Below, piece after piece: positions 5,580-61,751 of a stretch of 64,000 nt of DNA (positions within the stretch are counted from its first letter, which is position 1; each line of letters begins with the position of its first letter). Made by a program: the position numbers and the translations under genes. The notes under the pieces were generated by a model. That model searched no databases, was not told the origin of the DNA, and worked only from the letters and a program-made list of their open reading frames with translations. Source of the stretch: Telmatactis stephensoni (taxonomy: Eukaryota > Cnidaria > Anthozoa > Actiniaria > Isophelliidae); assembly GCA_029948255.1 (NCBI GenBank), contig JALIZF010001770.1:396001-460000 (forward strand), given 5' to 3'.

Positions 5580-6362
5580 CTAGCCAAAGTAGGGAGAGAT
5601 TTTTCTAAAGTGAAGAGTCAGAAGGACTCGTCCGAATTCAAAAGGGACTTTTTGGCCAGTGTCAAGCCTTAAGCTTACTTCAACAGAGTCAAACTGTTTT
5701 TGGTTGAGGGACAGGTATTGAGGATTTAGAAAGGATTTAGTAATGTGGTCTCCGTCTTTGCCTTCAAAATTAATGGCTCTTAAAAGCTGAACTTGTGAGT
5801 CACCAACAAACTGGGATTCAACCAGGCTACAATAGGCGTATAAGTTATGAAATCCATAATCTAAATCGGCTGCATTCGGTGCTGTGGTGGTTTTACTGTA
5901 AAGAGTGTCGGGTTTGAAACCTAACAGGGTTCCAACATCAGAGAAGAAGAGCTCTAAACTTTCACCAATTCTTGCAGTTACTTTTCTACTGACAGAATTG
6001 AAGGAAAAGTGAACATTGTCCTTGTGATCTGAACTTTGAATCAGCTCGTTCATGGTTGTTATAATACTTTGAAGGGAAGAGTAATGACCAGATGGAATTG
6101 TGTAGCTTTTTACGACCATACCCTTCTTTACATAGAATATATTCCACTTGTTGGTCATGTGGATATTGTTCCAGGTGTGGGGATACTGGATTTCAGTTAA
6201 GGCAACCTCCCATGCTCCTGTTAACACAATCGTTTTAGGAAAAAGGACTCGATATTCCGTTAGCGTGTTAGAGGGAAAGGTATTCATGCTAGAGTTCGAA
6301 GGCAGCCAGAGGTAAAACTGTGTACTCTCCATTACGTTTCTAACAAGTGCTCTCGTAGTCAT
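5580..6362 (-). CDS. Polinton-type minor capsid (penton-like jelly-roll) protein, intact ORF
   Basis: A single uninterrupted 260-codon frame. It begins with a segment rich in the family pattern FYLWLPSNSS, then LTGAWEVALTEIQYPHTW, and ends with VPFEFGRVLLTLHFRK. This combination is typical of the roughly 250-aa proteins that accompany polymerase B in animal Polintons and are predicted to be the minor, single-jelly-roll (penton) capsid protein. It lies on the same strand and 670 bp upstream of the polymerase start, as expected for one element. No major capsid, ATPase, integrase or protease gene is seen nearby, so this is a leftover of a larger element. Family call good; the capsid role rests on published structure predictions, not on this sequence. 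Confidence 0.7.
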   Translation of the reverse strand: MTTRALVRNVMESTQFYLWLPSNSSMNTFPSNTLTEYRVLFPKTIVLTGAWEVALTEIQYPHTWNNIHMTNKWNIFYVKKGMVVKSYTIPSGHYSSLQSIITTMNELIQSSDHKDNVHFSFNSVSRKVTARIGESLELFFSDVGTLLGFKPDTLYSKTTTAPNAADLDYGFHNLYAYCSLVESQFVGDSQVQLLRAINFEGKDGDHITKSFLNPQYLSLNQKQFDSVEVSLRLDTGQKVPFEFGRVLLTLHFRKISPYFG

Positions 6363-6372
6363 CCAACGATTA

Positions 6373-7325
6373 ATGGTGTCATGCCTAAAAATTCCTATCT
6401 ATAAAAAAGTTTTGATGAGGTGGTTGCACCGGGATAAAAAGAACTGTTCTGTAAAGTATAAATGTTATGTGAAAAGTTTTGTGTCTAGAACTTATGTAAA
6501 TTCGCGATCAGTTCTGCTTCATTTGTTTAGTCAAAGCTTTTTCATTGTGTTTCTTTCAAAACACTGTGTTTCAAAGGCACACACATCCCTTGCGGTTTGG
6601 TAATTATGTTTCTTTCAAAACACTGTGTTTCAAAGGCACACATTCGGTGGTGTCTTTACTTCTCAAGTATTTTAAAAATGTATCGTTTTTAGTGTGCAAA
6701 CTCTAGTATTTCAAGAATTTGCTTTTTGGTATTTTGAAGATTTTATAACGTTTCAAATTTTTGAAATCAAACCAATAATTTCTTTCAACATGATAGTCGA
6801 CAAAATTGTTTTTGCAGGTGGTTAGTGAATCAAACACAATAGATCCTTAAGCGTGGTACATGCCACTACCAACTCGTTCTTTTGTTTGAAATTCCGAAAA
6901 CGTCGTTCGGTTGCTGCGCAACGGAGTTCTCAGTATTACGTTTGTTCCTCAGTCGCACGAGTGATGGAAGCTTACTCAGACGCACCGAGAATAATTCCAT
7001 TTGTTTTTCTGCTCCGAAATATTTGTTTGGTTGCTGCGCCATGGAGTTTTCAATCCTGCAAGCAGATCGCCGGCGCATGACTCCCTGGTCGCTGTTGTGT
7101 GACTCCCCTTGCAGCACCGGCACGTGACCTCCTCTCTATTAGGGGCGTGACTTCCCCTGCACCGCGCGCACTGGCGCGCACCGGATGTAGAACTCTTACT
7201 TTCCTACTACTATCAGTCATCAGCCAACTCGATCATCCAGGTATACCAACCAGTTCCAATGATTTGCAATAATTTTGTGTCTAAATTCTGAAGTGACTTT
7301 GCACTGTGACTTTATTATATTTCAG
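6373..7325. other. No gene seen; short tandem duplications
   Basis: Non-coding. A 37-bp unit starting TGTTTCTTTCAAAACACTG occurs at 6548 and 6607 (59-bp period). A second diverged pair (GGTTGCTGCGC preceded by TTTGTTTGAAATTCCG or TTTTTCTGCTCCGAAA) lies at about 6880-6930 and 7005-7050. The last bases form the polypyrimidine tract and AG of the splice acceptor for the kinase exon. Confidence 0.6.
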
Positions 7326-7885: not shown

Positions 7886-10800
7886 TTAAAAAATCATTGT
7901 GATAGCAAATGATTATGATTAAAAGTTGCTTTTTTGGAAACATTTGACTTCAAGACATTTGTACCAAAAATTTGGTAGTAATTATGGTATTAGGATTTAG
8001 ACTGGTAAATTGGACACTGGATTTCATATTTTTCTACTTAATTGAATTCATATAAGTTTGATCAAAAGCAGTCAGATTGGTGTTCATAAAAAAGTCAGAT
8101 TATTGTTCATAAAAACACTTTCCTTCCAATTGGACAAACAGCTACTTTTGTTTCTCCTTTATCTTTAAATTCCACCTTTGCAAATCTTGAGTATATTCTT
8201 TGAACTGGCATGAAGCATGATGGCCCAGGTTGCTGATATTTACTTTTCAAAACTTTCACAGGATTTCCAATCATGTCACAGTGTTTATCTGCAGAATGCC
8301 ATTGGACAGTTGCAAAATAATACAAATGAAACTGAGTTCCAATTTGAATGGAATGCCTAAAGTAGAACTTTACTTTGCCAGGTGTTAAATTAAAAGATTC
8401 TTCCCTAATATCCCCATTAGGTAGAGTCCATGATGCCAAAATGTTACTTGATCTGATGCTTCGCTGTTCTAAATTTGAGCCATATCTAACATAGTTCACT
8501 GATATTGATCCAAACTTGTAAATGATTTCTGAAAGATTGCATATCTCAATAACAATGTTTGGAAACATGATTTGGTAGACTTTTCTTAGTAGCTCTAGGT
8601 CATCTGCATCAAAGTGGCTCATAACATGTGTTGAGGGCGCTGTTATTCCACTTTGATTCATCCAATCTATGTCATGTATAGGGTAGATTTGTGGTATCCT
8701 TTGGAAAGAAAAAGACTTTATCCAATCAGTATTTGGAGGTACAGTGCTTTTGACATCAGATGCATTTCCACATAAACCTATAAATTGATCTTGATAATCT
8801 TTTGGTAAAGGAGCTCCATCAAAATATCTTGAAACTAAAAACTTTCTCATTATCTGTAATTCAAGTGACCTGTTGTTTGTTGTTATACTACCCATAATGC
8901 CATTAAATCTCTCAAATGAAAAGCACCAAAACCCAGTGATTGGTCCATGGTCAAGAATAATATCTTTTAAATGTCCATGTAGGTGCATATTAGGTGTCAC
9001 GATTTCTTTGCCATACAACTGTTCTACAGTTGTACAGAATTTGATTAACAGATTGTCTGCAATGTCTAGTTCAGTTTTGGAGATGACTGGTCGACACAAG
9101 TATTGACAAGCAAGAACAAAACTTTGCCAACACTTGAAATGTTCCTCCAGTAAAATATCATGCAAACAGTAAATGGAATAGATGATTGTCCAATTTTTCC
9201 ATTGCTCTGCTGTATACGAACCAGAATTACTTGATATTTTTTTTGGTAATCTTCCAATATCACTTGGAACATCTATTGAGCCAATCTGTTTTTCAATTTC
9301 CACAATGTTTTTACTAGTGAGAATTTTACTGTCAACCCATAAGTTAAACATCTTTTTAGCTGTTCCCAAGAATAAATTGTGCATGGGGTCAACAGCCGCA
9401 AACCTAATTATATCAATATAGGCTAATTCCAATAAAACACTGTAGTGGGCTATTCCAGCTTTTTTACCCAGGTTTTTGGAAGCTGAAATGGTTTTGCTTT
9501 TTTTCATTTTCTGGGCAATTCGTTTGTGGTCAGTATGGCAACGTTGTTTCCAAATAGAACGGTTAAAACCAGAGTAGTCTCTCTTTTCTCCAAAGTTGCC
9601 AGGGAATTTCTTTAGGCATCTAGAGCAACCGAGCTCTCCAGAATGACTTTTGAAACCACATAGTTTTCTTGTGGCAGGTACATCCGATGATATACATAGA
9701 AGTGCAGCTCTAAATGTTAAGGGTATTCTGCTAAGTGGAGTCTTTATTTTTACTCCTTTCCATAAAGCTTTTAATTCTTCAATGGCAGGCTGCAAAAATT
9801 CATTAAGATTTTTAGGTTCCTTGTCAAGCGATGGAACTATTCCAATCACAATGATGTTTTCCCATTTGAACCTTTGCTCTCTTGGAAGGTTTAATAAAGC
9901 TAAGTAGAACACCCCAACAGAATAGTCTTTTCTGTGACTCATGGGTTGGAAGAAATCAAAATTTAGCATAAACCCGTAGTTGCGTGGAGATTTTAAAAAG
10001 TCAACTCCATTAATATTTTGAAATTCACTCCACAGTCTGCCATCTTATACATCGGCCATCAGATTATTACTCAGTTCTCTCTTTCTCCACGATTCACAGC
10101 TTTCAATGAACGATTCCCTGCCAACAAGCTTTTCAAGTTCCTCTATTATGCTGTTAGAGCAATAATATTTTATAGGGTAGAAGAGGGTTTTCCCGTTGTT
10201 TACAGTGACTTTTGTAACCATTTCAGAATTACAAAGTTTTTTACGGCCTCTTGAGAAGTAAGTGTTTGAACATCGTTTAGCTTCTTGTTTGTTGTTGCAA
10301 ATCGTCAAGCAGGAATCATATCTGTATAATTTTGTACATTTTGGGCAAACAACATATTTGTTGAAATTGTCTCTGTCCAAGTCTAAAAACTCTCTCATCA
10401 TATACGTTGTTGCAGGAAAGCTACATACTAGTTTAGCAATCAAGTCACTTGAAAATTCTACACCAAGTACTTTAAACCATGCCATTAGAAATTTCATCAA
10501 CCAGGCCATGCCATTATCACTAATGTGACAAGCTACTTGCCAGCTCAATAGGAAGTAGACAAGCCAAAAGACCAGAATGTTTAGTTTTTGTGTTGTGTTT
10601 TTGTGTGGCTTTGCCTCTGTAAGAGGTGTAGGCATCATGACATCTTTTTCAAGGTTTTCAGGTAGCTCATCCCAAATTTCCTCAGTATCCATAGTGTCAC
10701 TGTCACTGTCACTGACTTCGGCAGTGGTTTCATCATCACTGCTTCCTACGTTTCCTTCACTATCTAAGTCGTCTTCACCTGACTAAAAAATAACAAATAA

Positions 10801-17633: not shown

Positions 17634-18614
17634 CCCTTAAACCACCATATGGACATTATGGTCCGTCAGGAAAGTTGAACACTAATATCATTATTTTTAT
17701 GTTTACAAAATGCAATTAAAACATTAGATATGACTAAAACAATGTCAAAACATAGTTTCTGATAATAATTTGATGTGATAAAATCAAAATCTATCCTGTG
17801 GTGTGCCATAACTGAAAGCATTCCACAGTTAGTGGAACATCACATTTTTCACAGTAGATGCGGCCATGGCTTCCACACCCACAGACACAGTACCCTCTGG
17901 TGTCCCTTCTCTTGGGCCATTGCTCTAGCTTATCAAACCTTGTTCCTAATTGTTAAGATAATCTTCCTAGCCTTTTCCTGCATGTGAAAGTGCCGCACAA
18001 GCTCAAAACAAGTTCATCCCTGAATGCCTTTTGGTTTCTTGCTTCTTGATGACCTCAGGTAAAACACTCACAAATCCAAGCATTCACAATGACCATGTCT
18101 AGCATTTGCATAAAAACTGGCATCCACCATTTATGTGATTTTCTGGAACACTTATAGTAAGCCAGATGCTGGTCATTGGTGTCCATACCACCCATGTACA
18201 TGCAATAATCCACAACAACTGACAGGCACTCCTTCACAACACATTCTGCTTGCCCTTTTTCTTTATGCCTGACATTTTCACTGCCTGGCTTTCCCATTGT
18301 TGACAGTATGTGCACATCCTTGGTGTCTTTCCATTTCAGTGCAAAAAATCGTGGTTCCTTCATCAGCCATTTACTCTCTCCAGCTGTCAGTTTGGTGGCC
18401 TGCAAATGATGAGGAAATCCCACCCGATTTGGTCTGGTTGTCCCTGTACAATAAATCCCGAGCTCAAGAAGTGAATTTGCAAGAGACAAGCTGGTGTAGA
18501 AAGTGTCAAAATATTTTCTGAAAATACGATGGGAAAATTTTAAATTCTTAATTTTTGATGATTTTTTACAAATTATCTGCAAAAATCTGTATAATTAATT
18601 CAGTGGTTTAAGAG
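17634..18614. mobile_element. piggyBac derivative, 981 bp, internally deleted
   Basis: Flanked by exact TTAA (17630-17633 and 18615-18618), the piggyBac target duplication. Left end CCCTTAAACCACCATATGG; right end, read inward, CTCTTAAACCACTGAATTAA. It carries only the C-terminal part of a transposase. It sits in the LINE coding frame. Confidence 0.92.
17792..18582 (-). pseudogene. piggyBac transposase, C-terminal part only
   Basis: The frame 18055-18582 carries YFDTFYTSLSLANSLLELGI, YCTGTTRPNRVGFP, a MYMGGMDTNDQHLAYY block with the conserved catalytic-core aspartate, and SHKWWMPVFMQMLDMVIVNAW, all typical of PGBD-type DDD transposases. After a stop at 18055 another frame continues the C-terminal cysteine-rich domain at about 17792-17925 (YCVCGCG..GRIYCEKCDVPL..CFQLWH). 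The N-terminal half and the first catalytic aspartates are absent; the frame starts 30 bp inside the right end, so the 5' half was lost by internal deletion. Non-autonomous. Confidence 0.85.
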
Positions 18615-20535
18615 TTAAATATTCTTCTGGTTTGATATCTAGATTATGACTTAATTTGTACATTAGTGTCAGCCTGTTCTTCTTACTTCTTCTTTCCAGT
18701 GAGTCCCATCCTAATTTTGCAATCATGTCTGTAACACTTCCTGTTTGGTTGTAATTCTGGAGGCAAAAACGGGCAGCTTTCCTTTGGACTTTCTCCAAGG
18801 TTGAAATATCTTTTTGGTAGTGTGCGTCCCACGAGGCACTTGCGTACTCTAGTTTGGGTCGGACGATACTGGTGTAGGCCGTTTCGCGTACTTTCCTGGG
18901 GCAGTTCCAGAGATTTCTCTTGATCAACCCCAAGGATCGACTCGCCTTGCTTGAGATAGATGAAATATGTTCAGACCACTTTAATTTACTGTTAACAGTA
19001 ATTCCTAGGTACGATACTGAATCTACTTGTTCAAGTTTAGACCCACAAAAGAAATATGTCCGTTGAGGAGGTCTTTGCTTATTTGAAATGCAGATGATGT
19101 TGCACTTTGAAGGATTAAATTGCATTTGCCACTCATGTTGCCAAATTTCTAGGTTGTTGAGATCGTCTTGGAGATTGTCGCAATCTGAGTCTTCAACCAC
19201 CACTCCATACAGGAGAGTGTCATCGGCAAACAGCTTGACTGTAGAGGTCAAACCGTTTGGGAGATCATTAATGTATGTTAGGAACAACAACGGGCCTAGA
19301 ACTGACCCTTGTGGTACACCCGAGGTCACCGAGGAAGGGGGAGATGTTGCACCCTCACAGATGACGGTTTGGACCCTCTTAGTGAGAAAAGATTCCATCC
19401 AAGACAGAAGGCTTCCACGGATGCCGTAACGCTCCAGTTTCACTAGTAAGCGTTGGTGCGGAACTTTATCAAAGGCTTTTGTGAAGTCTAACACAGCAGC
19501 ATGGATCGATTTGTTTTGTTGTAAAGAACTTGCAATATCATGAATAGTAAGAATAAGTTGAAGCTCTGTGGATCTTTTTGATCTGAAACCATGCTGGCAG
19601 TCTGTTAGTATGTTATAATGTTCAAAATGTTTCATCACATGGCTATGAACAATGTGTTCAAGGATTTTCGATGCTATGCAGGTTAAGGATATAGGTCTGT
19701 AGTTGGAAGGAACAGACTTTTTCCCTTTTTTAAAGACACCACATACATTTGCTGTTTTCCATCTACTGGGCACAGTTCCACTTTCAATAGAATCTTGGTA
19801 AATATCAGTTAGAATAGGAGCAATCTCAACTGCATGTTCTTTTAGAAACCACGGTGGAATAGCATCAGGTCCAGAAGCTTTATTAGTCTTCAATAGTGAT
19901 AACTGCTTTGCAACTCCATTAATGGTGATAGACAGACTGTCAATGGCTGGTATTCTGTCATATCCATATCAGGTATGTTTGATAAGTCTTCTTGAGTAAA
20001 AACATTTGAAAAATGTTGTATTGAGTATTTCAGCTTTCGAATTGACTTTTTTGCTTTGTTATAAAGCCTTTGTTTACGCCTGGCTAGACGTTTCAAAGAG
20101 TGATTAAACCATGGTAGATTATATCTTGAACTTGTCCACTTTGAGGGGATGCAGGAATCCATTATACGGTGGATGTTATCTTCAAAGCAGCTCCATTTTT
20201 CGTCAATTGAATTAAAACCCCTTGTATCCATATAAAATGATAGTTTTATAAGTTCTTCTTTAATACGAGTAGAATCGGCTTTCTTTCTGATGAATATTTT
20301 GCGCTTTACATTCTTCTTCCTACGGCATAAAGTGTTCACAGAGAATAACACATTATCATGATCTCTGATACCAGGAACTACCTTGACATTTTCAATGATG
20401 TTGGAATTATTTGAGAGTATCTTCTCGTTGGTTCTTTGACGTGTTGACTCAAGTCATGATCATCAATTATTTCCAAAAGTCTATCAGACGCAGGAGAGTG
20501 GCTTTGAATATTCATTATCCCAATTATCCCAATTA

Positions 20536-20604
20536 CAACCATTATCGTTGAAGTGCAACCCACGAAGTTCAAAGTCTCGTTTTCAAACTAGCGTTTACAC
20601 TGCA
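20536..20604 (+). repeat. Left terminal inverted repeat of the two-gene DD34E transposon
   Basis: 69 bp, exact reverse complement of 27230-27298, directly after target TA 20534-20535. Starts CAACCATTATCG and ends GTTTACACTGCA. Confidence 0.95.
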
Positions 20605-20659
20605 GTCAATCAAAATCCTGGGACCGAGTTTGACCGAGCGATCCAGACTTGACAGCAAG

Positions 20660-23600
20660 ATGGCGGTCAGTCCTTACGATATCGAAGAGGTACTTGACGA
20701 AGAGGATACACAATTATTCGAGGGAGAAAATGTAAGTAAACTCATGTAGATCAATCTATAAACTTTGTTCATCAGCATTTGTAAAAATTAATCATTACAA
20801 GTCTGTTGTAGTGCTGGTTCTTCACATTTATACCGTTCTAAATTTCCCGCCGCAGGTCAGAAGAGAAGTCCGGCTTTTTCTGTCAACGAAAAAAGGAAAG
20901 GTTGACGGGGTGGAGACAACTCCTTTTACTTTACCCTCTAAGTGGGATTTCAAAACTTTAAGAGCTGAAATAAAGCGTCACATAGAAAGACTGAAGGAAG
21001 AAGACGTTATTATCAATAATATATATTACAAGAAATCTAAGGGTAGAGGGGTAGTGAAAGTGGAAAATGACAGTGACTTGCCGTTCATCCTTAAAGAATA
21101 TCCAATTGCTTATCCCAGCGGAAGGAAAAAAGAGTCCAATTCTATTGTTTTGGCCGTTGACTGGAGTCTAAGCAGTGAGTATACTTGATCAAGCTGTAAT
21201 ATAAACACTGTACAAATTTGAAACAAAATTGTCAATAACCTTAGACATTAGACATGTATGTGTTTATTATTCTTTTCACTGTACATGCAATTTTATCTAT
21301 ATACTTATTTTACTTATTTTTATAATTCTTCATCTTTAAGTTCAAATTAATTAACAAAGGAATTCAAACAATAACAGCCGTTAAAATAAGGCTTATTGTT
21401 ACATGCTCTAATAATAATTGCTTGCATTTGGTCATGTTATTGTTTGTACTTTCACAATAGTTAAAGTTGAATTCCTTCATTGCTTATTTAGAACCAGAAA
21501 CACCAAGGAGATCTCCTAGACAGAAATCCTACATGGACATATTTGTATTCAAAGCAGAGGAAGTTAGGGGTAGAATAAATGTCTCTGGGGCAGCCAAGAC
21601 TTTGCATAAAGTGGACAAAAATGCCACTCTTGAAGAGATAAAGATGCTTCTGAGAACTTACAATGACAAAGAAGCAGTATTTGTCCCACTCAAGGGGTTA
21701 TATTGGATGAAGAAAGGAACAAAACAGTGTGTTGCACTGCAAGATGATAGTGATCTGGAAAAGGCTATGGAGCAATATGGAAGTACTAACCTTTGTCTAG
21801 CTTGTGGAACTTTGTCATTGGCTAGTTCAGGTATGTTTATTTGTACAACTGTTCAATGCATAGGGCCACAAGTACACATGCTGGTTGTATGTTTTGTTTG
21901 AATACAAATGCAAATAAAATTTATCCCAAAACACAACTATTTATAAATAGTCTGTGTAGGAGCAGTACTATAGCATTATATCTCACTTGTTTAAATTATT
22001 TATATCAGTTTTTTAATGAACCTCATTTTAGATCATAGTAGTAAGAGAAAATTGCAATATGATGGGGACAAAAGGGATGAAGAGATGATAAAGAACCTTG
22101 AACCAAAGCAACCAAGGAAAGATGAGAATGATCTCTGGAATCAGTGTCATGCTCAACTCATTAAAGATTTGGAAAAAAAAGGCACCTTATGGAGATACAG
22201 CCATAAACATTTAAAGCTTTGGACTGATGAGATACTCGAGGGACATTCATCAGGAATAGGTGAAGAACCAGATTGGATAAAACACATGGATAAAGTTGTC
22301 ACGCCACCAAAAACATCACGAGTGGCTGCTGTGAATCAACAGGACAAGCAGGGGAAATGGCCAATACAAAACACTAACTCATTTGGCCAAGGATATACTG
22401 AAAATATGTTCAATACTTGCATGATGAGCATGATGGCAACCACCATGACAATGCTTTCTCAGGTAAAAATAAAGACTGATATCCATATCACTAAATGTAT
22501 GATAGCACAATATTTCCCTCTGCCAGTTTGAACATGTAATGTAACTTATAAAGCACATTAAATAATCAACCAATAGACCACTTTCATAATTCAGTTTTTT
22601 CCAGTAGAGAAAATGAGGGCCTTGTGCAAGAAATTATCAATGTTATGTGAGAAATTACTTCAAGACAAATATTTTCAGAAAATTTTATCACTTTTGGTTC
22701 AATATCAAAAAAGTTATGCGCTGTCAAAAATAGAGAGTTTTGTATGTAATTTTGACCAAAAAGCCTTGGTAGCCTCGTTTTGGTGGATTTTCAGAATTTT
22801 AAATCCCCATATCTTGTCAAGGATTTAATGTTTTGTTTTGAAAATTGCACAAATTATCAAAATCAACAATCTTAATAATTTCAAATTGATACAGTTCCAG
22901 AAATAGTAATTTTTCATTATTTATGCTAATTAGCAGCGGCCATTATGAAAGTCTTGTATTAAATTTTAATGTAAACTTCAAACATCTGATTTTCAGTATT
23001 TTTCAATAATGACATTACTTAGTACATAATTTATTTTAAGTCTTTCATAACAACTTTCAATGTAAAAGATAACTATGATAACAATAACAGCTAATTAAAA
23101 GTTATAGTAATATTATTAATCTTGTTCATTTTATCACCAATAATTTATTGAAATAATGGCATTGTATCAGGCACACGCTGTTACATGTATGATGATAAAA
23201 AATGATCTATTTATTATATTAGCTTTCAGGAAAACAACCCCATCAGATGCCATCTTCAACAACTATTTCATCACCACCATTTATGCAGCCTTCACCATTT
23301 CAAATGCCAATTGCCAATAATTGTGCTTCCAACTCAGCGCAAACATTCGTGCAGCCTACACTTTTTCAAATGCCAACTGACCCATGTACTTCTAGCTCAC
23401 CATCAACATCCACGCAGTCGATATCAACATCCATGCAGGCAATACAGTCTTCACCAGATATGCCATCATCCCAAGAAAAACCCAAGGAATTGTCCTATTT
23501 CTCACTGCAAGAGTGCTGTAGTTTCCTTGCTTCTCTGGGACTCAGCCATCACATTTCAAAGTTCCAAGACAACAACATGGATGGCCAGTTGCTTAGTGCT

Positions 23601-23804
23601 TTAGCCCACCCAAACTTTGGTAAAGTTATGCTCGAAAGTATGGGGTTTTCTGCTGAAGAGCAGCAGACATTAGTTGATGGCATAGCTTACTACAAAAGTC
23701 CTTCTGAACCACCTTCGCTATCACAAGATGAATCTCAAAGTTTCTCTTTCTCTCAATGGGTAGATGAACAAAAAGATGTTAGCAAGAAATTTCACTTGGA
23801 TTAA
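20660..23804 (+). CDS. PB1-like/SAM-domain accessory protein of the DD34E transposon, five exons, 580 aa
   Basis: Exons 20660-20731, 20856-21174, 21492-21830, 22032-22462 and 23223-23804; every junction is GT-AG and the phases (0, 1, 1, 0) close to exactly 581 codons. ATG at 20660 follows the inverted repeat closely. Exon 2 (residues about 25-130) and exon 3 (about 131-243) each contain a ubiquitin-fold/PB1-like stretch ending in the same pattern, NDSDLPFILKEY and DDSDLEKAMEQY, suggesting an internal duplication. Exon 4 is charged (KEKGTLWRYSHKHLKLWTDE) with a Met-rich end. Exon 5 is Ser/Pro/Gln-rich, then has a SAM-like domain (FSLQECCSFLASLGLSHHIS..F....MDGQLLSAL...LESMGF, residues about 475-540). 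SAM and PB1 are protein-interaction folds, so a scaffold or transposase partner is plausible. No catalytic motif seen. The exact function is unknown. Confidence 0.8.
22568..22965. other. AT-rich part of intron 4 with weak inverted ends
   Basis: ACTTTCATAAT at 22580 and ATTATGAAAGT at 22943 are inverted copies; the interior is non-coding. Possibly a decayed MITE; the arms are too short to be sure. Confidence 0.3.
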
Positions 23805-23967
23805 ATTATTATATACATGTATACGGGCATTTTAATGCTGTGGGCGTCAAAAAGTTTATAAAAAGCACAACAATACAGTTGATATTTAAGGGCATGTAAA
23901 AAGGTGCCATTTTGGTCTGACTCATTTTTTGCGTTTTATAATGTTTATAGTTATTCTATTGTTTGAA

Positions 23968-24141
23968 TGTTATCAATAGACTTCTGAAGCTTTGATGTCA
24001 TGTATCGTACAGTATATGCAATGCATTGTGGGACATGTCTGGGATAAAACATGGTGGATTTAATTTGTTTTCTTAAACTGATCCCACAATGCAATGCAAA
24101 ACAAGTGGTGATGTAAAGGCTTCAGGGGTCTATTAGTCAGA
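23968..24141. mobile_element. Palindromic MITE between the two genes of the DD34E transposon
   Basis: TCAATAGACTTCTGAAGCTT (23972) pairs with the reverse of GGCTTCAGGGGTCTATTA (24118), and ATGCAATGCATTGTGGGA (24018) pairs with TCCCACAATGCAATGCA (24083). Total about 170 bp, no ORF. Confidence 0.6.
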
Positions 24142-24572
24142 GTGACAGTAGTATTTGTTTCACACGTTTATGAAAACTATATGGGTTACTTTGTTTCAGA
24201 GGACTCTTTGCAATTGATAGTTATAGTAAAATACTCCAAAACACACCCAAAGTCTATGCATGTATTGCTTTAGTAATCATAATTTCTTGTTTTTTTTTTG
24301 TCAACCACCTTAGTAGTTCAAATACACACTAAAAATATAGACATAAATGAACACAATGACATTAGAGAGCCTACTAAGCTGTTGATACATTGTATCTTGC
24401 TTATTGTTATTTATTTTATGCAGCATATCCACAACTGTCAAACTCTGACAAACAGACATCAGGTTGGATCTGGAAAAAGGCAAAAACCATTATTATAAAT
24501 TAGATTGATATCTTTGTTAGATATTTACAGAACATCCTAATTGCAAGAGCACTGCAACATTAAATAAACATA

Positions 24573-24877
24573 GGGGGTATTATCCTCGGGAACCCAGGGG
24601 TAATCTTTTGTCATTTGTTCCTCACTCCCAGAAGAAATACCCCTAGGCATGAAGTCTGTTAGACCTTGTTCTCGATTCGAAATTTAAAATGGCGGACGCT
24701 TGTCTCTGATCGGTCAATAGATTGAGTTGAACATTCTGATTGGTTGTTTGATTACTGCCCGCCATTTTGAATTTTGAATTGAGAACAAGGTCTAACAGAC
24801 TTCAAGACCTCATGCCCAGGGGTATTTTTTCTGGGAGTGAGGAACGAATGACAAAAGATTACCCATGAGGGGGTAAT
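24573..24877. mobile_element. Roughly 300-bp foldback MITE
   Basis: Arms of about 110 bp: GGGTAATCTTTTGTCATTTG at 24598 and its near-perfect inverse ending near 24865, CTCACTCCCAGAAGAAATAC near 24631 with its inverse near 24828, and GTCTGTTAGACCTTGTTCTC near 24656 with its inverse near 24783. The centre has short direct words (CCGCCATTTT) and no ORF. It lies in the 3' intergenic space between the convergent genes of the larger transposon. Confidence 0.8.
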
Positions 24878-25033
24878 TACAGACAAAAGAATCAACTGAG
24901 CTTGAGCAATTTTGTTTTTAACTATATTTTTACTGATTATTTGTTATTAACATTTTAATGGCACAGTGTTCCTACAATTTGTTATTTATAAGCTTACAAT
25001 TTATTACATGTATTTCAGATTTACTTATCTCAA

Positions 25034-27104
25034 TCAACACACCTGACTTAGTGCATATTCAAAACTTCTCTTGGGATTATCATTGCAAAATTGTCTATGT
25101 TTTGCAATCCACATTTTGGCTATGTTGAATGCCTTTTCAATTGGATTGAAGTCGGGAGAATATGGTCTGTTGGGTTAATAAAATTGAACTTTAAGTCTGA
25201 ACTCTACATCATTGTGAGATAAATACGATATTTCTTGTATGTTTTGTTGTTATAATTACACAATAAAAATATGTACTCAGGTATGTCATGTAAATATACT
25301 TACGGTAAAAAAATCACTATTCCTCCCCTTTCTCGGACCATTTCCAGTACCCTCCCAGAATCATGAATTCTACAGTTGTCCATGATAACAACTGAATTAG
25401 ATTCTCCTTTTGCAAGGGATCCAATGTAGGGCAGGACAAAGTGTTCCACAGCATGTTCAAATTGATCTCTGTTATAACTACCAATGATGCAGTGTCCAAA
25501 AGCACCTTGGGTGGTGATCCCACCAAGAACACTATATCTGGTTCCTCTTACAAAGTATCCTTCAGTGGAAACTTTTGTACCTTGGAGTCCTCTCCCATAT
25601 TTTCTCTGTAAAATAATTTATTTTCTTAGTTATAAAATCTAATATTACTTTCAAACAACTAATACAGCTTTAAAGACAAGTTATTTTTTGTATAATTTTT
25701 TGTCATGTTTTATAAAACCTCAGATTTTCAAGATGGAAAAGTCTTAAAGTGATAAGAAAGTTAAGTTCTAATAAATAATTTATAAAAATATTATAATTAA
25801 TAATACTAATTATTATTCAGTCTTAAGGGTAGTAATCAAACACATCAAAGTCAGTGTTATTTAACATGCCTAAATCAGAATAGACCATTTCACTTATTCC
25901 CTCACTGGAGGACCAAACAATGGTTATTCTCTCTCTTGAGAATTGATAACTTTTGTCATGCGAACATTTTTCATTGTTTTGACCTCCAGTCAGGGAATAA
26001 GTGAAATGGGTCTATAGGCATTTTCATTGAGATGCTTCAAGCCTATATGACTGAACTGAACTGAAAGGCAGCATGCTGAAATATATCATGATATAAAGAA
26101 CAACAATAGTGTAACTTTACATGCAAGTTACTTTGACCAAATGTCTTTTCAACTGAATGCATTTTTGGAGAATGGTTATATAAAAAGCTTAATATGTTAC
26201 ATGTACTTGAGTATAAGTAATAATGTATGTGTTAGAATTTAATAAAGAACTGCATGTACCTGTAAATTTCTATTATCCTTTGATGATTCATCAATAAATA
26301 GGAGCTGATCACGACGAAAAGCAGCAATTCTTCTTCTAAATTTGGCTCTCTCAACTTCGTTACGTTGTTTTGCAATAATCTGTAACTAAACGTATTATGA
26401 AAGTAAACTATTTACATGTAGCCTTTTGCCCACAGTACTTTTACAGATTTATAGAGGAGTCTGGAAGAGACATCAAAAACCCTATAAAAAATTCAAATCG
26501 GGCTAATCACACCCAAATATTACACCAGGAACAAAAACAAGCTCAACTCGAAGTAAGCAAACTGTATTTCAAGTATTCTCCTTTTTTAACATATTGACCA
26601 ACAGGAATCAGCTTGAGCTTCCTGTGTTTTGCCTTGTTTGTTTTGTTCATTCCAATATCAGGTATATATAACATATACAGTTACCTTTCGACGTGAAAAT
26701 CCCATTCTTTGTAGAGCTCTTTCAATCAGAGACACCGATAATTTTTCGTTTCTTCCTGTAATAAACTGAAGCCATTCGGCCATTTCTTCAAAGTAAAGGT
26801 CCGGATGTTCATCAACAAGACGGTGTAAAAGTAGGATTTCCTGTGCTAAAAATTGAATCTTGTAAAACTTAAGATTTATTAAAGCACATACAACATATGA
26901 TTGCAAGCACTTACGTGAAAGTTTTCTTGACTTCCCAAGTCGTACTTTTCCTTTGATGCTTCCTGTTTCTTCGTAAAGTTTTTTAATTTTTTTAACAAAC
27001 GAATTACTCACATCCAATTTTTGGCATATTTCTTTTACCGAAGAACCCCTGAGACACAATCTCACAACCCTCCATCGCAAACTTTCGTCGTAAATACGAG
27101 GCAT
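25034..27104 (-). CDS. Tc1/mariner (IS630) superfamily DD34E transposase, five exons, 301 aa
   Basis: Exons 26915-27104, 26685-26845, 26260-26379, 25304-25605 and 25034-25166; GT-AG throughout, phases 1, 0, 0, 2, exact closure at TGA. ATG at 27102-27104 (MPRIYDES). Two helix-turn-helix units bind the repeats: RWRVVRLCLRGSSVKEICQK..VSNSFVKKI and LSVSLIERALQRMGFSRRK. The catalytic triad is visible: D in LLFIDES, D in VIMDNCRIHD, E in YSPDFNPIEKAF, with 34 residues between the last D and E. DDE transposases of this type cut and paste at TA, matching the flanks. Introns are unusual for the family. The gene starts 126 bp inside the right inverted repeat and converges on the SAM gene. Confidence 0.9.
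25880..26018. mobile_element. Small MITE in transposase intron 3
   Basis: ATAGACCATTTCACTTATTC near 25882 (continuing CCTCACTGGAGG) pairs with the inverse of GAATAAGTGAAATGGGTCTAT ending near 26015 (shown here by its first words GAATAAGTGAAATG). Arms of about 45 bp, loop about 50 bp, no ORF. TA may be the target (..TA GACC / GGTC TA..). Confidence 0.65.
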
Positions 27105-27229
27105 AATTATATAGAACAGACGATTCTCACAAGTGAAAATCACTCGAGATCAGACGCCATTTTGGATCACTCGGTAAACTCGGTCCCAGCTCATTTTGAT
27201 TGACGGCAGTGTAAACCTGGGTACGAGAT

Positions 27230-27298
27230 TGCAGTGTAAACGCTAGTTTGAAAACGAGACTTTGAACTTCGTGGGTTGCACTTCAACGATAATGGTTG
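27230..27298 (-). repeat. Right terminal inverted repeat of the two-gene DD34E transposon
   Basis: Exact inverse of 20536-20604, followed by target TA at 27299-27300. Confidence 0.95.
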
Positions 27299-27300
27299 TA

Positions 27301-42244: not shown

Positions 42245-42640
42245 ATCTTCAGTAGAACCTCCTTACATTTAAAGGGGAGACTCCAAGAAATGCATCACTT
42301 ATAGCTAACAGAGTGTTCTCTCTCAGTGCTCCTGGTGTTCTGCGGGGTACTGCCTTTGCCATACCAAAAACCATTTCAATAGGATTTAGGTCATAACTGT
42401 AAGCAGGAAGCATCACCAATGTTATGTTTTTTTACTGATAGAATATTTGCCAAATTAGCTTCATTGTGTACGTTGGCATTGTCTGCTATGAGGTAAACGT
42501 TATTCGGAATTAAAGGTAAAATTTGGTTCTCGATCACTTCATTAACCATTTGAATGTTAAAATTCCCTTGAATAGGAACAGCGGTTAAGACTCCCTCAAC
42601 ATACCCTGTTACACTCATCACTGATTGACTACTCCAAGGT
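42245..42640 (-). pseudogene. Tc1/IS630-type transposase, C-terminal fragment
   Basis: Frame with VMSVTGYVEGVLTAVPIQG, LIADNANVHNE (second catalytic D region) and, after a frame slip near 42420, AYSYDLNPIEMVFGMAK carrying the DDE glutamate. It is joined head-on at about 42640 to BEL gag with no gap. A matching N-terminal helix-turn-helix lies at 46.2-46.5 kb on the same strand, so one transposase gene may have been split by the BEL and LINE material between. Confidence 0.65.
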
Positions 42641-43908
42641 CTTGCAGCTTTTTGTTGTCTTTGCATCCAATCTTGGGGAACGCACTCAGCTTATCCATAT
42701 GGACTTTTGTGATAGCATCTGATCCAAATCGCTCACACAGCCTCTTCCATGTCTCCTTTACTCCGTCTTCTGGATTCTCTATGTAGGCGTTACGTAGACT
42801 CTGAACAAGTTTCTTAGAGTGTCCTGTGGTGTACTCGACCATCAGAGATAACTCCTCACTAGCTGACACATTGACGTCTTTGATCATATTCTTGAAAGAT
42901 GCTTTCCATGTTCTGAAGTTTTGTGGGGCATCGTCGAATTTATCAAGTTTATTTGCAATAATCTCTCTTCTTGCCATGAACTGTATATATGATTCCACAG
43001 TTTTTCTTTCTGATGATTGACTACCTCGACAGTCGTTGCTCTGGGCTTCCTGTGTTTTCTCGTTGCTAGGTGACATTCGAATGGCTTCCTCGTTTTCATC
43101 TTGACCTTGCTGGGCATTCAGAAAATTTAAAACTCTTTGTTTAGAATCTAGTTTAGGAAGCTCAAAGGGCTTAAAACTGTCGTTTTCTTCTTCAAAAAAA
43201 GGTTCTTCTTCGATGGCTGCTAGCCGGGCTCTAGCGACTTCAACTTCTTCATTGAGACGTAATTTTTGAAGGAGTTTTTCCTCTTCTTTTTTAATCTTTG
43301 TCAAGGCGTCATGTTGTTCTTTCAATTTTTTTTCGAGATCCTCTATTCTTTTTTCTGATTGCCGTTCAACTTGCGTTATCTTTTCGCATATTTGTGCTCT
43401 TTTTTTTGGCTGCTGCAGCGTCGGCTTTAGCTTGAACACGCATAACAGAGGAAGAGCGGGAAGACGCGTAAGAACTGCCGTGCGAGCGAGTTGAACCTAG
43501 TTCTTGTAAGAGGTCATTTTTGCGAGCGACTGCATCAGTTATTGCTGAGTTTACAAACTCCTTTCGATTCTTCATTAAGTCATCAATGATTTTTGCTTCA
43601 TCCTGACATTCTTTAGCATTTGCAGAAGCGATAATATCGAGTATAGCATGATGTGTTGATTCATAATCGCCGAAGGTAGAGTGTAGCTTGTTGATGGCCG
43701 TGCGAATTTCATCGACTAACTCCGTAGTTTTCTTCAAATCTTCAATGGCTATTTTCGCGTTTTTCCAGTCAACTTCTAGTTTTGCTCTACCTTCTTGAAT
43801 ATGGTTTTCTATTACCTTGAGCATGGGTTTCCTAACCCTCTTCTCGCCGTGTAGAAGATCTTCCGTTTCTTCGCAGGTTGAGTCGTCTGGCCGATTTGAG
43901 TCGCCCAT
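42640..43908 (-). pseudogene. BEL/Pao-type gag fragment
   Basis: Starts MGDSNRPDDS at 43906-43908. The first 165 residues are helical and coiled coil (VDEIRTAINKLHSTFGDYESTHHAILDII). After a one-base slip in an A8 run near 43405 the second frame continues (KRAQICEKITQVERQSEKRIEDLEKKLKEQ), followed by an acidic segment and a DUF1759-like capsid region: IANKLDKFDDAPQNFRTWKASFKNMI, LSLMVEYTTGHSKKLVQSL, WKRLCERFGS. Such Gag regions precede protease and reverse transcriptase in BEL/Pao elements, none of which follow here; the frame ends at the Tc1 junction at 42640. LTRs were not identified. Confidence 0.75.
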
Positions 43909-50419: not shown

Positions 50420-50611
50420 AGGGAGTTTAAGCAAACGCTACGGCAGCCTCTAGTACGGCAGTCAAAGTAGAGGGGGGACTGGATATAGTACGGCATCGTA
50501 GCCCGCCATATTTGAAATTTAAGCAACACACTCCTGCATCGTAGTACGGCAAGACTAGCCTTCACTATTTTTATTTTGTTTCATGCCAGTTATCGTTTGT
50601 TTTTGCTCTTG

Positions 50612-52211
50612 ATGACTTCGTTCAAAGACACAAGAGAATTGATTGTCCTTTCTTATGACCAAGGAGTCTTAAATGACGACGAATTCGTGGTTTTGTGGGA
50701 ATTGTATAAATCGTCAAATTTAGACCTGCCGTATGACTCGTACCCTCGTTTTGTTTTCGACGAGATAGATGATGACGAGTGTTTGGCCGAGTTCAGAGTT
50801 AAGAAAGAAGATATTCTATCACTTGTTGAAGTTCTTCAGATTCCAGAAACTATATATTGCAATCAGCGTAGCAAAGCTGAAGGAACCGAGGCACTTTGTA
50901 TGCTTCTAAAGCGTTTAGCCTACCCTATTCGGTTCAGTGATATGGTGCCGAGATTTGGTCGTCCTGTACCCGTTTTATGTATGATAACCAACCAAATTCT
51001 TGATTATATTTATACTACTCATGCTCACCGAATCACCCAGTGGAATGATTCAATACTGAATCCCCAAGCCTTAGAAACGTACGCTCAAGCAATCTACAAC
51101 AGAGGTTCACCCTTGCAAAATTGTTTTGGTTTTATTGACGGGACAGTGAGGGCGATTTCAAGGCCTGATAACAACCAAAGAATTGTTTACAACGGCCATA
51201 AAAGAGTCCATGCTCTAAAATTTCAGTCTTTGGCGATACCAAATGGGCTTATTGGGCACCTATATGGTCCAGTAGGTGAGTGGTCACGTAGATGACATGT
51301 ACAACTGAAAAAGTATATAGAAAAGTTATCTTTCCTTCCGGGTTAAGTAAACTCACTCTAGTTAGAGTGGTTTTCAGTATCCCATGAAACAAAAAGTATT
51401 AGTTAGTGTGATAGAGTGCTTGTAAAAAAAACGTGAAATAGTTAGTAGACTGAAAGACACTAGTAGACCGTATTTCCATTTGACTGTTTTCTTTTGTGTC
51501 TACTGAACTATTACACACTAGCTATTATTTTTTGTTTCACATTTGGGGGGGGGATCACTCCAGTCAGATAACAATGGAATTAGGGTGTATTAAAAAGTGA
51601 TACACTAAAGTGTGTTCCATGGGTTTATGAAAACCACTCTAGTAGTAGTAGTAGTGGTAGGATTTAGTAGTAGTAGTATAGTAGTAGATGTAAAGCATGC
51701 ACCTTAAGAATTGATAGATCTACTGATAAAAATGTTGAATTTTCTGATTAAATGTCAAGGATTCCTACTAAAATGTGATTCGTTTCCAATTTCTCTAGAA
51801 GGAAAAATGCATGACGCTGGTATGTTACGAGATTCCCAGCTGTTGCAAAGTCTACAGACGTTTGCCTTTGACCCTAATGGACAGATGATGTGCATCTATG
51901 GTGATCCCGCTTATCCACTACGCCCAAATTTACAAGCACCATTTCGACATGGAATCCTTACACCCCAAATGCAAGCTTTTAATGCTGCAATGAGCAATGT
52001 GCGCACATCTGTAGAATGGCTATTCGGTGACGTCATCAATTACTTTAAGTTCCTAGACTTTAAAAAGAATTTGAAAATTGGATTGAGCAGTGTGGGAAAA
52101 ATGTATGTGGTGTGTGCCCTTTTGAGGAATGCACTCACTTGTCTGTATGGCAACCAGACATCACAGTATTTTGGACTTGATCCACCAAGTTTGCAAGATT
52201 ACTTTGCATAG
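50612..52211 (+). CDS. Harbinger transposase (HARBI1-like), two exons, 358 aa
   Basis: Exons 50612-51275 and 51799-52211, GT-AG, phase 1, closing to 359 codons. The ATG at 50612 (MTSFKDTREL) is the first Met in the frame. DDE_Tnp_4 landmarks: a helix-turn-helix region near residues 65-120, D in NCFGFIDGTVR, GHKRVHALKFQS, MHDAGMLRDS after the splice, D in MCIYGDPAYPL, E in RTSVEWLFGDV. All three catalytic residues are present and the frame is open, so the protein could be functional. In this superfamily the transposase needs the Myb-like partner for nuclear import and end recognition, and that partner is broken here. The stop codon TAG overlaps the first bases of a MITE (see 52209-52344). Confidence 0.9.
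51357..51645. mobile_element. Palindromic MITE in the Harbinger intron
   Basis: TCTAGTTAGAGTGGTTTTCA near 51357 (then GTATCCCATGAAAC) pairs with the inverse of GTTCCATGGGTTTATGAAAACC at 51614-51635. A second, inner palindrome (GTTAGTAGACTGAAAGACAC against GTGTCTACTGAAC) lies at 51441-51525. The GTAGTA microsatellite follows at 51640-51690. No ORF. Confidence 0.65.
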
Positions 52212-52344
52212 AGTGCTGGCACTGAACCCATGAAACAAATAGTACTAAATAACACTAATTAAACAATAGAAAATAAAGACTTTCATGATATTCAGTGCTA
52301 TTTAGCAACTACTTACAGTTCACAGGTTTAATGCGAGCACTCTA
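52209..52344. mobile_element. Palindromic MITE starting at the transposase stop codon
   Basis: TAGAGTGCTGGCACTGAACC at 52209 pairs with the inverse of GGTTTAATGCGAGCACTCTA ending at 52344. If TA is the target duplication, the element is 52211-52342 and the stop codon TAG consists of the target TA plus the element's first G. Interior ATAGAAAATAAAGACTTTCA as in the other copies. Confidence 0.7.
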
Positions 52345-52912
52345 GTATCAATTCTTTATATAATTAGGTGTGTCAAAATAGTATTCCAGTATGTCAGACA
52401 TCAACAACAACAATTTACAATATAAATGTTCAATAAGTATTTTATACTTATTAGTCTAACTTATAGGCAATATTTTGGGCCTATTCACAGGTAAAAGGGT
52501 GCCCCTATATAGTAGGGATAACTCTTTTGTTTTTGTTATGTATAAATGAGTCACCCTATTTAAATGAAGGTATCTATCTTTTCCCTGGGGTCACAAAACA
52601 AAAGAGTCATCCCTACTACATGGGATCACCCTCTCTCATGTGAAAGAGCCCTTAGCCTATCTAGTGTTTGTATCCTATGAAGTTTGTAATTGAAAATCCA
52701 ATTTTGTTAAGAATTATTAACTTCATGTACAATAAATGTTCAAATCTAAAAACTCAATACAAAATTCATTTTTATCCACTGGTCTGGTCATTTAATTGTG
52801 CCAGAGAATGGATCAACATTAACCTAAAGAAACATTCAAAATGAATGAAAAGCAACATATTTCAAAACTTCTAACATATAACTATACTCAAATTGATATA
52901 TAACTATGCTGT

Positions 52913-53782
52913 TCATGATTTTCGTGGTAAGAGTCTTTCCAAAAGTGTCATCATTGCAGCAGTCTGTTGTTGCTGCTGTTGAAGCATTTGCATTTGCATT
53001 TCAAACATTTTATTCTGCTGATTCAAACCTTGTGCCTGTCTAGCAGCCTCTTGTTCTTGCTCCTTCTTCCTGAGGGCAATTTCCTCCATTTTTAGCTCTT
53101 TATCCATTTCTGCCTTCTCTTTAAGAAATTCTACAGCATCAGAACTGGTTCTCCTCCTTTTACCTTTCTTAGATTCTTCTTCTTTAGGTTCAGATCTCTT
53201 TTGGGTCTCTCCATACCTCTCCATAGCTTGTTTACGTAAATCTTCAGCTGTTTTTTTATCTGCTTCTACCTTCTTTTGTGTACTCTCAGAGTCTCTCGAT
53301 TCTTCTGCTAGCTTTTCTCTCAATTATTTCACTGACTAAGGCATCCAGTTCAGATTCTTCATCTACTTCTATACCACTTGCAGCTTCTTCACCCTTGATT
53401 TTCTCGTGATATCTGTTTTGAAGTCGTTCAATTCTTTCTCTGACTCCTCTTTGCCCAACTCTGAATTTTACTTCGATATTCTTGTTAAGTGTCTCAGCTA
53501 TCTTAGTCCACGATTTCCCTCTATCATTACTCCCTTTTTTTGTATTTATATGGCTCTTCAACAAGTGTCTCACGACATAAGAGCACGTCGTGCTTCTCAG
53601 TCCAATCCATAGGCCTATAAATAAAAGGAAAAATAAAATCGTTCTGGGCAAGGTAAAATGCTGAAAGGCTTTATCGTTTTAATATTCAATATTTAGCTAT
53701 CGAATTAGGACAAGTTATGCTCGTTATACAACAGAATAAACATGCAAATAACTTACGGAGCTCTTTTGACTTTTGCCGCCAT
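52913..53782 (-). pseudogene. Harbinger Myb/SANT-like partner gene, frameshifted
   Basis: Exon 1 53757-53782 (MAAKVKRAP), exon 2 from the acceptor near 53633. The correct frame starts MDWTEKHDVLLCRETLVEEP, the trihelix Myb/SANT-like domain, then loses frame in an A7 run at about 53535-53541, where one A too many is present. The next frame gives KGSNDRGKSWTKIAETLN, FRVGQRGVRERIERLQNRY and IEVDEESELDALVSEIIER. A second slip near 53310 separates EKLAEESRD...KRRRTSSDA and a long Glu/Lys/Gln coiled coil ending LERLLPRKS. It normally binds the element ends and helps the transposase; two frameshifts make this copy inactive. Confidence 0.85.
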
Positions 53783-59965: not shown

Positions 59966-60149
59966 CTGGTAGGACCAATAGCTGTTATTACAGTTCCGCA
60001 AGTCATTCTTGTGGTACAGCGGTATCTACGTGGAAATACACGGAAACGAGGCTTTCGGGCGAAGACATCATGAATTTCTGAGGTTCAGTGGAATATTCTC
60101 TTCAATTTCTTCTTTACTGTGCTTTTAAAGAAAGATTTCAGCCTTCTTT

Positions 60150-61751
60150 ATGATGACGAGACACTGCATAGCATATGGCTGTGTCAACAGTAGCAATAAA
60201 CCAGGATGTGCTGGATTATCTTGGCATTCTTTGCCTATCAAGAACAAAACATTACTTCGAACCTGGCTGATAAAAATCAAGCGAGAGAACACTCCCGTCA
60301 CGAAGAATTCCTACTTATGCAGTGCTCATTTTTCTGCAGAATGTTTCCAGAAAGCTATAGGTGGCAGCAGAGTATACTTAAAACCAGGATCTATCCCTAC
60401 GATATTTAGTTTTAACCAAGAAAGGCCTTCGAGGAAAGCACCTCTCGATAGATCGCAGTCTGGAAAATCTACACGTAAGGAAACATGTTCAAGCCTTGCA
60501 GACCTCGAGTTAAATGGAGCAGAAAAACACAATGATATTCAAGGTGATATTAATTCATTACCACGTGAAAAAAACGACGAATACGATTCTACCGAAGAAA
60601 TACTTGACGAATCACAGCCAATGGAACCAGAACTTACTGGCATCAGTCAGGAACACTCTGCACAGATTGCACAGCTCGAAGAGAGGCTCCAAGCAATGGA
60701 GAACAGACTAACGTGTACCAAGGAACTTCTTGAACGCCGCATTGCTGAACTTGAAAGGAAGCTAGAAGAGGAAAGAGAGGCCAGAAAGAACTTGGAACAA
60801 AAGCTTTTGGAAAACGTTTTCAACATCGATAATATCAAAAAGAATGACAAACTTTTCAAGTTTTATACCGGTTTTGAAAATTATGAAGTTTTCAGTATGA
60901 TACTGAACTTTCTTGGAAGAGAGGCAGCTTCTAGATTAGACTATGGGAACAAAGATCTAGAAAGGGTGGATTTAAAAGACAAACCAGGACCTCAACGGGC
61001 TCTTTCAGTGGAAAACGAATTCTTTCTCCTTTTGTGTCGTTGTAAAGTTGGGCTACTTGAGGAAGACCTAGCTACTAGATTTAGAATATCTCAGAGCCTT
61101 GTAAGTAAAATTATCATTACTTGGATCAAGTTTGTGTACTTCAGGTTCAAAGAACTGAACATCTTCCCAGATAGAGATATAATAGAGCTTCACAAACCTC
61201 AGTGCTTCAAAGATAAATACAAAGGTACCACAGTCATTATTGATGCAACAGAGATCTACATTGAAAAGCCTAGTAACCCTGAAGCACAGCAGTTGACTTT
61301 TTCCAGTTATAAGAACAGTAACACACTCAAGTCATTGATAGGTATTACTCCAAGTGGTAGTGTCTGTTTTGTTTCACAATTATATGGTGGATCAATATCA
61401 GATAAGGACATTACATTGAAGTCTGGATTTATTGAAAAGCTTCAAAGAAATGACGAAGTCATGGCAGATAGAGGATTCAATATTCAAGAGATACCAGAAA
61501 TTGTTTGCAAAGGTGTGAAGGTGAATGTACCCCCATTCATGAATGAGTCAGGCCAATTTACTGAAAGTGAATTGTTAAAAACAAGGCGGATTGCAACACT
61601 CAGAATCCATGTTGAGAGAGCCATAGAAAGAATAAAAAATTATCACATTCTAGACTTCATTCCAGTCACATTGTGCAAAAATGGATTAATTGATATGATT
61701 TTTTTCATTTGTGCTATGTTCACCAATTTCTTACCTCCCCTTGTAAACTGA
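60150..61751 (+). CDS. ISL2EU transposase: THAP domain, coiled coil, DDE core, 533 aa
   Basis: Intact single exon. Residues 1-90 form a THAP zinc domain (HCIAYGC..., LPIKNKTLLRTWL, NSYLCSAHF, KPGSIPTIF) that binds DNA at the element ends. Residues about 168-222 are a long coiled coil (QIAQLEERLQAMENRL..ELERKLEEEREARKNLEQKL) for oligomerisation. Then a helix-turn-helix (LATRFRISQSLVSKII) and a DDE_Tnp_4-type core: D in GTTVIIDATE, D in DEVMADRGF, E in LRIHVERAIERIK. The start at 60150 (MMTRHC) places the THAP cysteine at position 6, as usual. Open throughout, so possibly functional. Convergent with the YqaJ gene at 63.2 kb. Confidence 0.85.
   Translation: MMTRHCIAYGCVNSSNKPGCAGLSWHSLPIKNKTLLRTWLIKIKRENTPVTKNSYLCSAHFSAECFQKAIGGSRVYLKPGSIPTIFSFNQERPSRKAPLDRSQSGKSTRKETCSSLADLELNGAEKHNDIQGDINSLPREKNDEYDSTEEILDESQPMEPELTGISQEHSAQIAQLEERLQAMENRLTCTKELLERRIAELERKLEEEREARKNLEQKLLENVFNIDNIKKNDKLFKFYTGFENYEVFSMILNFLGREAASRLDYGNKDLERVDLKDKPGPQRALSVENEFFLLLCRCKVGLLEEDLATRFRISQSLVSKIIITWIKFVYFRFKELNIFPDRDIIELHKPQCFKDKYKGTTVIIDATEIYIEKPSNPEAQQLTFSSYKNSNTLKSLIGITPSGSVCFVSQLYGGSISDKDITLKSGFIEKLQRNDEVMADRGFNIQEIPEIVCKGVKVNVPPFMNESGQFTESELLKTRRIATLRIHVERAIERIKNYHILDFIPVTLCKNGLIDMIFFICAMFTNFLPPLVN

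Follow-up and report, generated by a model that had tools for sequence, protein, structure and literature searches.

Transposons of the IS630-Tc1-mariner (ITm) group are usually described as elements for which a single transposase suffices. A typical Tc1/mariner element in the strict sense is short and carries one intronless gene. The pogo elements span 1.20-5.20 kb and have one or two transposase open reading frames, as given in a passage of PMC7386202, and the ciliate Tec/TBE elements are DD34E transposons with additional genes, according to an excerpt of PMC7325037. In rice and zebrafish Harbinger, the transposase and a Myb-like partner are both required, and the zebrafish partner binds the transposase, a binding needed for nuclear localisation, as passages of PMC9710019 report. 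In the present analysis, a 64,000-nt stretch of the Telmatactis stephensoni genome (GCA_029948255.1, contig JALIZF010001770.1, positions 396,001 to 460,000), i.e., the window, was studied for an element of 6,763 bp located at 20536-27298. The element bears a spliced transposase gene and a convergent accessory gene. It probably represents a two-gene ITm lineage in which the accessory protein, putatively a scaffold, is encoded by the element for its own mobility. The borders had been proposed in an earlier sequence-only reading of the window, and the coordinates were correct.

In the inverted-repeat comparison within the window, the two terminal inverted repeats (TIRs) were identical across 69 bp. 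Inward of the left TIR, 88% similarity continued to approximately 20645, offset by additional sequence on the right. An empty site was recognized by genome search at C83:937812-937938, where the query of joined flanks was aligned contiguously, i.e., 128/145 bases with 98% identity. There the left and right flanks share exactly one TA, and the window copy thus inserted cleanly, duplicating 2 bp within TTAA. The perfect repeats and the TA duplication of the sequence-only reading were borne out by identical TIRs, TA on both sides, and the single-TA empty site; both features belong to the ITm group. The flanks resemble what we take to be minus-strand pieces of a long interspersed nuclear element (LINE) relic. 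The pattern TTA-element-TAA was present in 16/16 insertions inspected, i.e., 13 elements by scan, one family (D, below) by eye, and the copies C166 and C745/C691, with TA-only duplication proven by an empty site solely for the window copy. The scan of the ends looked for TTAC, and the resulting borders agree with comparisons between copies.

The transposase gene lies on the minus strand, convergent to the accessory gene. The five-exon reading proposed earlier closes in frame at 301 aa, and a sixth exon was likely overlooked in it. The homologues P0005, P0006, and P0011 have a C-terminal motif of the FFEDCGY kind (P0004 does not), and a sixth exon yields ALSQ joined to IQPDVCLSEFDSCGYAA, giving a transposase of 316 aa with a probable C-terminal CGY. 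The DD34E assignment was retained, with the D,D34E spacing counted by eye on the 316-aa sequence. Pfam DDE_3 was matched at 80.5 bits (cut-off 28.6), and the NCBIfam IS630 model at 142.7 (cut-off 100). The former label of Tc1/mariner holds at the level of an IS630-type transposase of the ITm group, a placement made apart from Tc1 or mariner references. A midpoint-rooted tree was built from 41 transposases, none of them a named Tc1, mariner, pogo or Gambol sequence; in it, the window transposase and those of related families A-F and H were grouped with P0005 and P0004 (support 98/92). P0005, from Actinia tenebrosa, adjoins family E (support 100/99), and P0004 is from Acropora muricata. The Dendronephthya and Montipora transposases fall outside that clade.

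The accessory gene on the plus strand was confirmed as the convergent five-exon gene of 580 aa that had been reported, i.e., in frame, with all introns GT..AG and zero internal stops. Alternative nearby GT/AG choices also close, at 570-580 aa among those listed, and single borders are thus unproven; the models of both genes are predictions from sequence alone. Two PB1-like repeats and a SAM domain had been named in the protein. SAM_2 passes the Pfam cut-off (22.4 bits versus 20.5), whereas Pfam PB1 stays under it (19.1 bits versus 23.6). The ubiquitin-like fold of PB1 was supported in models of the homologues P0002 and P0127 rather than of the window protein itself. By VIA-align, rows 1-22 for both models were PB1 chains by title or, for rows titled phox domain or PB1-bearing kinase, by recall, and the P0002 model tested well only for the first PB1 domain. 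On that same model, Foldseek ranked USP7 ubiquitin-like domains first, whereas VIA-align ranked PB1 first. Classical type I PB1 has an acidic turn, and in both PB1 domains here that turn is lysine/arginine (K/R)-rich. No match was found in the Pfam scan of P0135 and P0141, both of which hold the conserved helical domain, or in a sequence comparison of the accessory protein profile with solved structures.

Exaiptasia and Actinostola have relatives of the accessory protein, and two Actinostola relatives, from contigs that differ in length, are identical at 161/162 residues. None were found in viral or bacterial contig collections, which may omit records near the window's genome. In P0003, an annotated Actinostola protein, the PB1/core region is joined to a helix-turn-helix (HTH) region of another kind. 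Two gene models may have been fused here, or the protein may reflect a second partnership with a transposon.

The two genes are paired recurrently in the 483.5-Mb assembly. The transposase search gave 145 matches, i.e., 65 of intron-type exon 4 (at least 44% identity), 47 of single-frame relatives (23-30%), and 33 of other intron-type exons; these counts are lower bounds, with 126/752 candidates scored. The core-domain search of the accessory protein gave 66 matches (77/77 candidates scored), counted as 65 loci. The core-domain loci and nine PB1-only loci from the accessory search were used as the partner set. A convergent PB1-family exon within 10 kb was found at 52/65 intron-type transposase loci versus 0/47 single-frame relatives, where the chance expectation is approximately 0.0007 per locus. 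One single-frame relative, C367, has an accessory exon nearby, but in another arrangement. With the added partners C60:622064 and C735, and a SAM exon at C942, 55 of the 65 intron-type loci are paired. Conversely, 51/65 core-domain loci have a convergent transposase within 10 kb.

The pairing extends over related families of the genome, listed in the table. Families were defined by comparison of near-identical copies, whereas inverted repeats served for families D and F and for the third copy of B. Nine exon queries were used, i.e., two PB1, core, SAM, and five transposase exons, leaving out accessory exon 1 and transposase exon 6. With 9/9 queries matched in each, both genes are represented in families A, B, D, E, and F. 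G (C429, 7.5 kb examined) is degraded, including its transposase exons, and H (C942, 5 kb examined) has SAM and four transposase exons, with PB1 and core absent from the stretch. Since near-identical copies exist in several families, e.g., 99.8% in E and B, recent movement of these families is suggested. A single-copy host gene would have spoken against the sequence-only reading, but the accessory gene is not one: with the accessory protein as query, 93 exon matches were obtained, spread across many contigs.

In the window family, the window copy corresponds to C177 in the genome search. The full copy C101:322549-329305 is 99.8% identical and has an identical transposase, and in its accessory gene the A-run of exon 4 is longer by 1 nt. 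C745 holds the left 764 bases and C691 the right 6,001 bases of an element copy, and these look like one copy split at TA by another nested TIR element. The splitting element has the ends CTCAAGTRTGTTAAGGCCTGGTTCAG and is inserted at TA. C166 is a 4.3 kb relic (approximately 94-97% identical) with a frameshifted transposase, and its accessory gene was lost from within exon 3 onward. In the relic at C289:31k, PB1 exons alone were found. The non-decayed copies are 99.8-99.9% identical. In each of the four long copies, including the window, both genes are present or traceable: C101 and C745/C691 carry both and C166 formerly did, which agrees with what the sequence-only reading had proposed to look for. 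The three long copies other than the window each have a defect or interruption. On 19 contigs, paired inverted matches (76-89%) to the element repeat span approximately 280-350 bp, and they look like short non-autonomous relatives.

The two proteins diverged in parallel. Across seven families, identities were 43-66% for the accessory protein (PB1, PB1, and core) and 48-62% for the transposase, and the protein distance matrices were correlated (Mantel r 0.71; 28/5040 permutations as high). In five family pairs, the proportion of nonsynonymous differences (pN) was 0.22-0.35 and that of synonymous differences (pS) 0.79-0.90 for the accessory gene, and 0.25-0.37 and 0.74-0.82 for the transposase, with between-family pS near saturation. 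Zero stop codons were found in the within-family comparisons (8 pairs for two genes, i.e., 16). Coding exons were less diverged than the rest in 5/7 pairs (three A and two B; Fisher p 0.002-0.03), the A and B pairs sharing copies and being therefore non-independent. The selection on both genes that was argued earlier is visible as pN well under pS between families, whereas the within-family counts partly run the opposite way.

Besides the saturation and the shared copies, several observations weigh against a two-gene lineage under constraint. The C and E pairs show no contrast between coding exons and the rest. The B transposase comparisons contain 1 or 4 gap positions, and in the transposase of the B pairs and of the A pair C389/C546, up to 3 nonsynonymous changes were counted but 0 synonymous ones. 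The within-family codon counts alone do not show purifying selection, and they are too few for a ratio of nonsynonymous to synonymous rates (dN/dS). At ten of the 65 intron-type transposase loci no partner was detected. Of these ten, C289 alone was partly inspected, and in the 2.5 kb beside it neither accessory nor transposase matches were found. Similarly, 14/65 core-domain loci have no transposase match; only C429 was read, where the transposase exons are degraded. SAM was not found in family C, even with the family profile, and the other eight queries match there. The autonomous lineage with an accessory protein, as once proposed, is better described as a recurring two-gene design spread over multiple families, one of them without a SAM match.

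For the mechanism, relatives of the transposase bind their ends through an HTH and cut at TA. It is reasonable to consider that the intron-rich DD34E transposase would likewise bind the long terminal repeats via its N-terminal HTH, excise the element, and reinsert it into TTAA sites, at their TA. The PB1-PB1-helical domain-SAM protein of the convergent gene would be retained by the element for its own mobility, and both proteins may be needed. The accessory protein would most likely bind the transposase, and its PB1 and SAM contacts would bridge or multimerise the transposase-end complexes, perhaps also tethering them to chromatin or the nucleus. A scaffold is suggested because the protein consists of modules, i.e., PB1 and SAM, that make protein contacts and form chains elsewhere. 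In a bolder form, the families would make up a cnidarian lineage of superfamily level in the IS630 group, and for transposition this lineage would rely on a PB1-SAM scaffold of its own that forms chains or condensates. This form is held tentatively, as possible rather than probable. We know of no other DNA transposon with a transpososome assembled by chains or condensates.

The main rival is a host-facing role such as anti-silencing. The accessory protein would then be a host-interaction factor, acting against silencing or docking on host PB1/SAM proteins, and would be dispensable for the cut-and-paste chemistry. The use of protein-contact modules, the K/R-rich turn in both PB1 domains, and the lack of a SAM match in family C fit such a factor, and retention across many families is equally compatible with it. 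However, the parallel divergence with the transposase is explained at least equally well by a direct partner, and no host partner is known. We consider the host-facing role less likely than the scaffold. A captured host gene kept as a passenger is far less credible. Capture could be the origin of the gene, since animal signalling proteins often contain PB1 and SAM, and a host homologue is possible among the 14 core-domain loci without a transposase match. Nevertheless, the pair recurs in several families whose proteins are 43-66% identical, pN lies well under pS in both genes, and because an idle passenger would decay, this reading is disfavoured.

Chance pairing of two unrelated elements, nested or side by side, was also considered, as the window is repeat-rich and palindromes are nested inside the introns. 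In several families, however, a single TIR pair encloses both genes, the empty site of the window copy is exact, and 55/65 loci are paired. Chance nesting was rejected by the convergent pairing statistics and the single-TA empty site, and its probability is taken as negligible.

Table. Features of the two-gene element in the window, and lengths of the related families in the genome.
Feature	Position in window or length	Strand	Remark
TA target duplication, left	20534..20535	.	target TTAA
Left TIR	20536..20604	+	69 bp, perfect
Accessory exon 1	20660..20731	+	start ATG
Accessory exon 2	20856..21174	+	first PB1-fold domain; fold from homologue model
Accessory exon 3	21492..21830	+	second PB1-fold domain; fold from homologue model
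Accessory exon 4	22032..22462	+	conserved helical domain and helical tail; partly homologue-based
Accessory exon 5	23223..23804	+	serine/proline-rich linker and SAM domain; stop TAA
Probable transposase exon 6	24416..24469	-	C-terminal CGY
Palindromic repeat resembling a miniature inverted-repeat transposable element (MITE)	24595..24867	.	273 bp; transposase intron 5 (between exons 5 and 6)
Transposase exon 5	25043..25166	-	catalytic Glu (NPIE)
Transposase exon 4	25304..25605	-	second catalytic Asp (DNCRIH)
Palindromic repeat	25880..26015	.	transposase intron 3
Transposase exon 3	26260..26379	-	first catalytic Asp (FIDES)
Transposase exon 2	26685..26845	-	
Transposase exon 1	26915..27104	-	HTH / paired-like DNA-binding region
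Right TIR	27230..27298	-	69 bp, perfect
TA target duplication, right	27299..27300	.	
Family A	5.76-5.79 kb		three copies; TIRs
Family B	6.4-6.8 kb		three copies; TIRs
Family C	4.9-5.1 kb		two copies; TIRs
Family D	6.5 kb		one copy; TIRs
Family E	5.4-5.8 kb		two copies; TIRs
Family F	6.7 kb		one copy; TIRs

Elsewhere, the window is rich in repeats. A decayed DD34E transposase relative of a different lineage lies at 42252-42690 on the minus strand. At 50516-53678, two plus-strand frames are accompanied by a minus-strand Myb/SANT-like frame (MADF below the Pfam cut-off). The plus-strand frames are presumably a Harbinger-type transposase by our own recognition, the first having no Pfam match, and the stretch is possibly a resident two-gene element. 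A 540-codon frame at 60129-61751 unites THAP, HTH_Tnp_4, and a DDE_Tnp_4 endonuclease. On the minus strand, a Transposase_21 (tnp2) match, i.e., a different transposon superfamily, was found at 8107-10782 next to a frame without Pfam match, and a DDE_Tnp_1_7 fragment (PF13843) at 18055-18594 adjoins a reverse transcriptase frame at 18595-19968. The 272-aa frame at 5580-6398, also on the minus strand, has zero Pfam matches at E 0.01.

Compared with known systems, the two-gene element shares DDE_3, DD34E, TIRs, and TA duplication with the ITm group (IS630, Tc1/mariner, pogo, Gambol, and Zator). It departs from that group in its length (4.9-6.8 kb), in a transposase gene of five to six exons, in the second conserved gene, and in the TTAA context at every end inspected. 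In place of the short one-gene form of strict Tc1/mariner, the window copy has 6.8 kb and two spliced genes. PiggyBac duplicates the 4-bp TTAA; here the target also reads TTAA, yet TA alone is duplicated. The PIF/Harbinger elements with a Myb-like/MADF partner likewise keep two separate genes, a transposase and its partner. However, the transposase belongs to a different superfamily, as Pfam gives DDE_3 and no DDE_Tnp_4 here, and the partner is unrelated. PIF/Harbinger makes a 3-bp direct target duplication, whereas TA alone is duplicated in the window copy. When the accessory protein was earlier likened to the Myb partner of Harbinger as a scaffold, the conserved partner gene was rightly seen, and the scaffold action stays conjectural. 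The parallel would be one of working, not descent.

The accessory protein can also be set beside the PB1/SAM scaffold proteins, e.g., p62, NBR1, and MEKK, from which it differs by tandem PB1 and the conserved helical domain. For Tec, the extra gene named in the excerpt of PMC7325037 is a site-specific recombinase, and PB1 or SAM go unmentioned there. Among the matches listed from the open-access literature, no description of a PB1-SAM partner was found, and a Repbase consensus may exist unnamed. The need of this transposase for a scaffold and the use of polymer-forming modules in mobile DNA become testable with these families, and recent movement would make a natural two-component TTAA-targeting system directly studiable. 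Within the ITm group, a whole lineage retains a second, conserved multi-domain protein across deep divergence. Two-gene DNA transposons are known, and the PB1-SAM partner appears to be new as far as the open-access literature shows.

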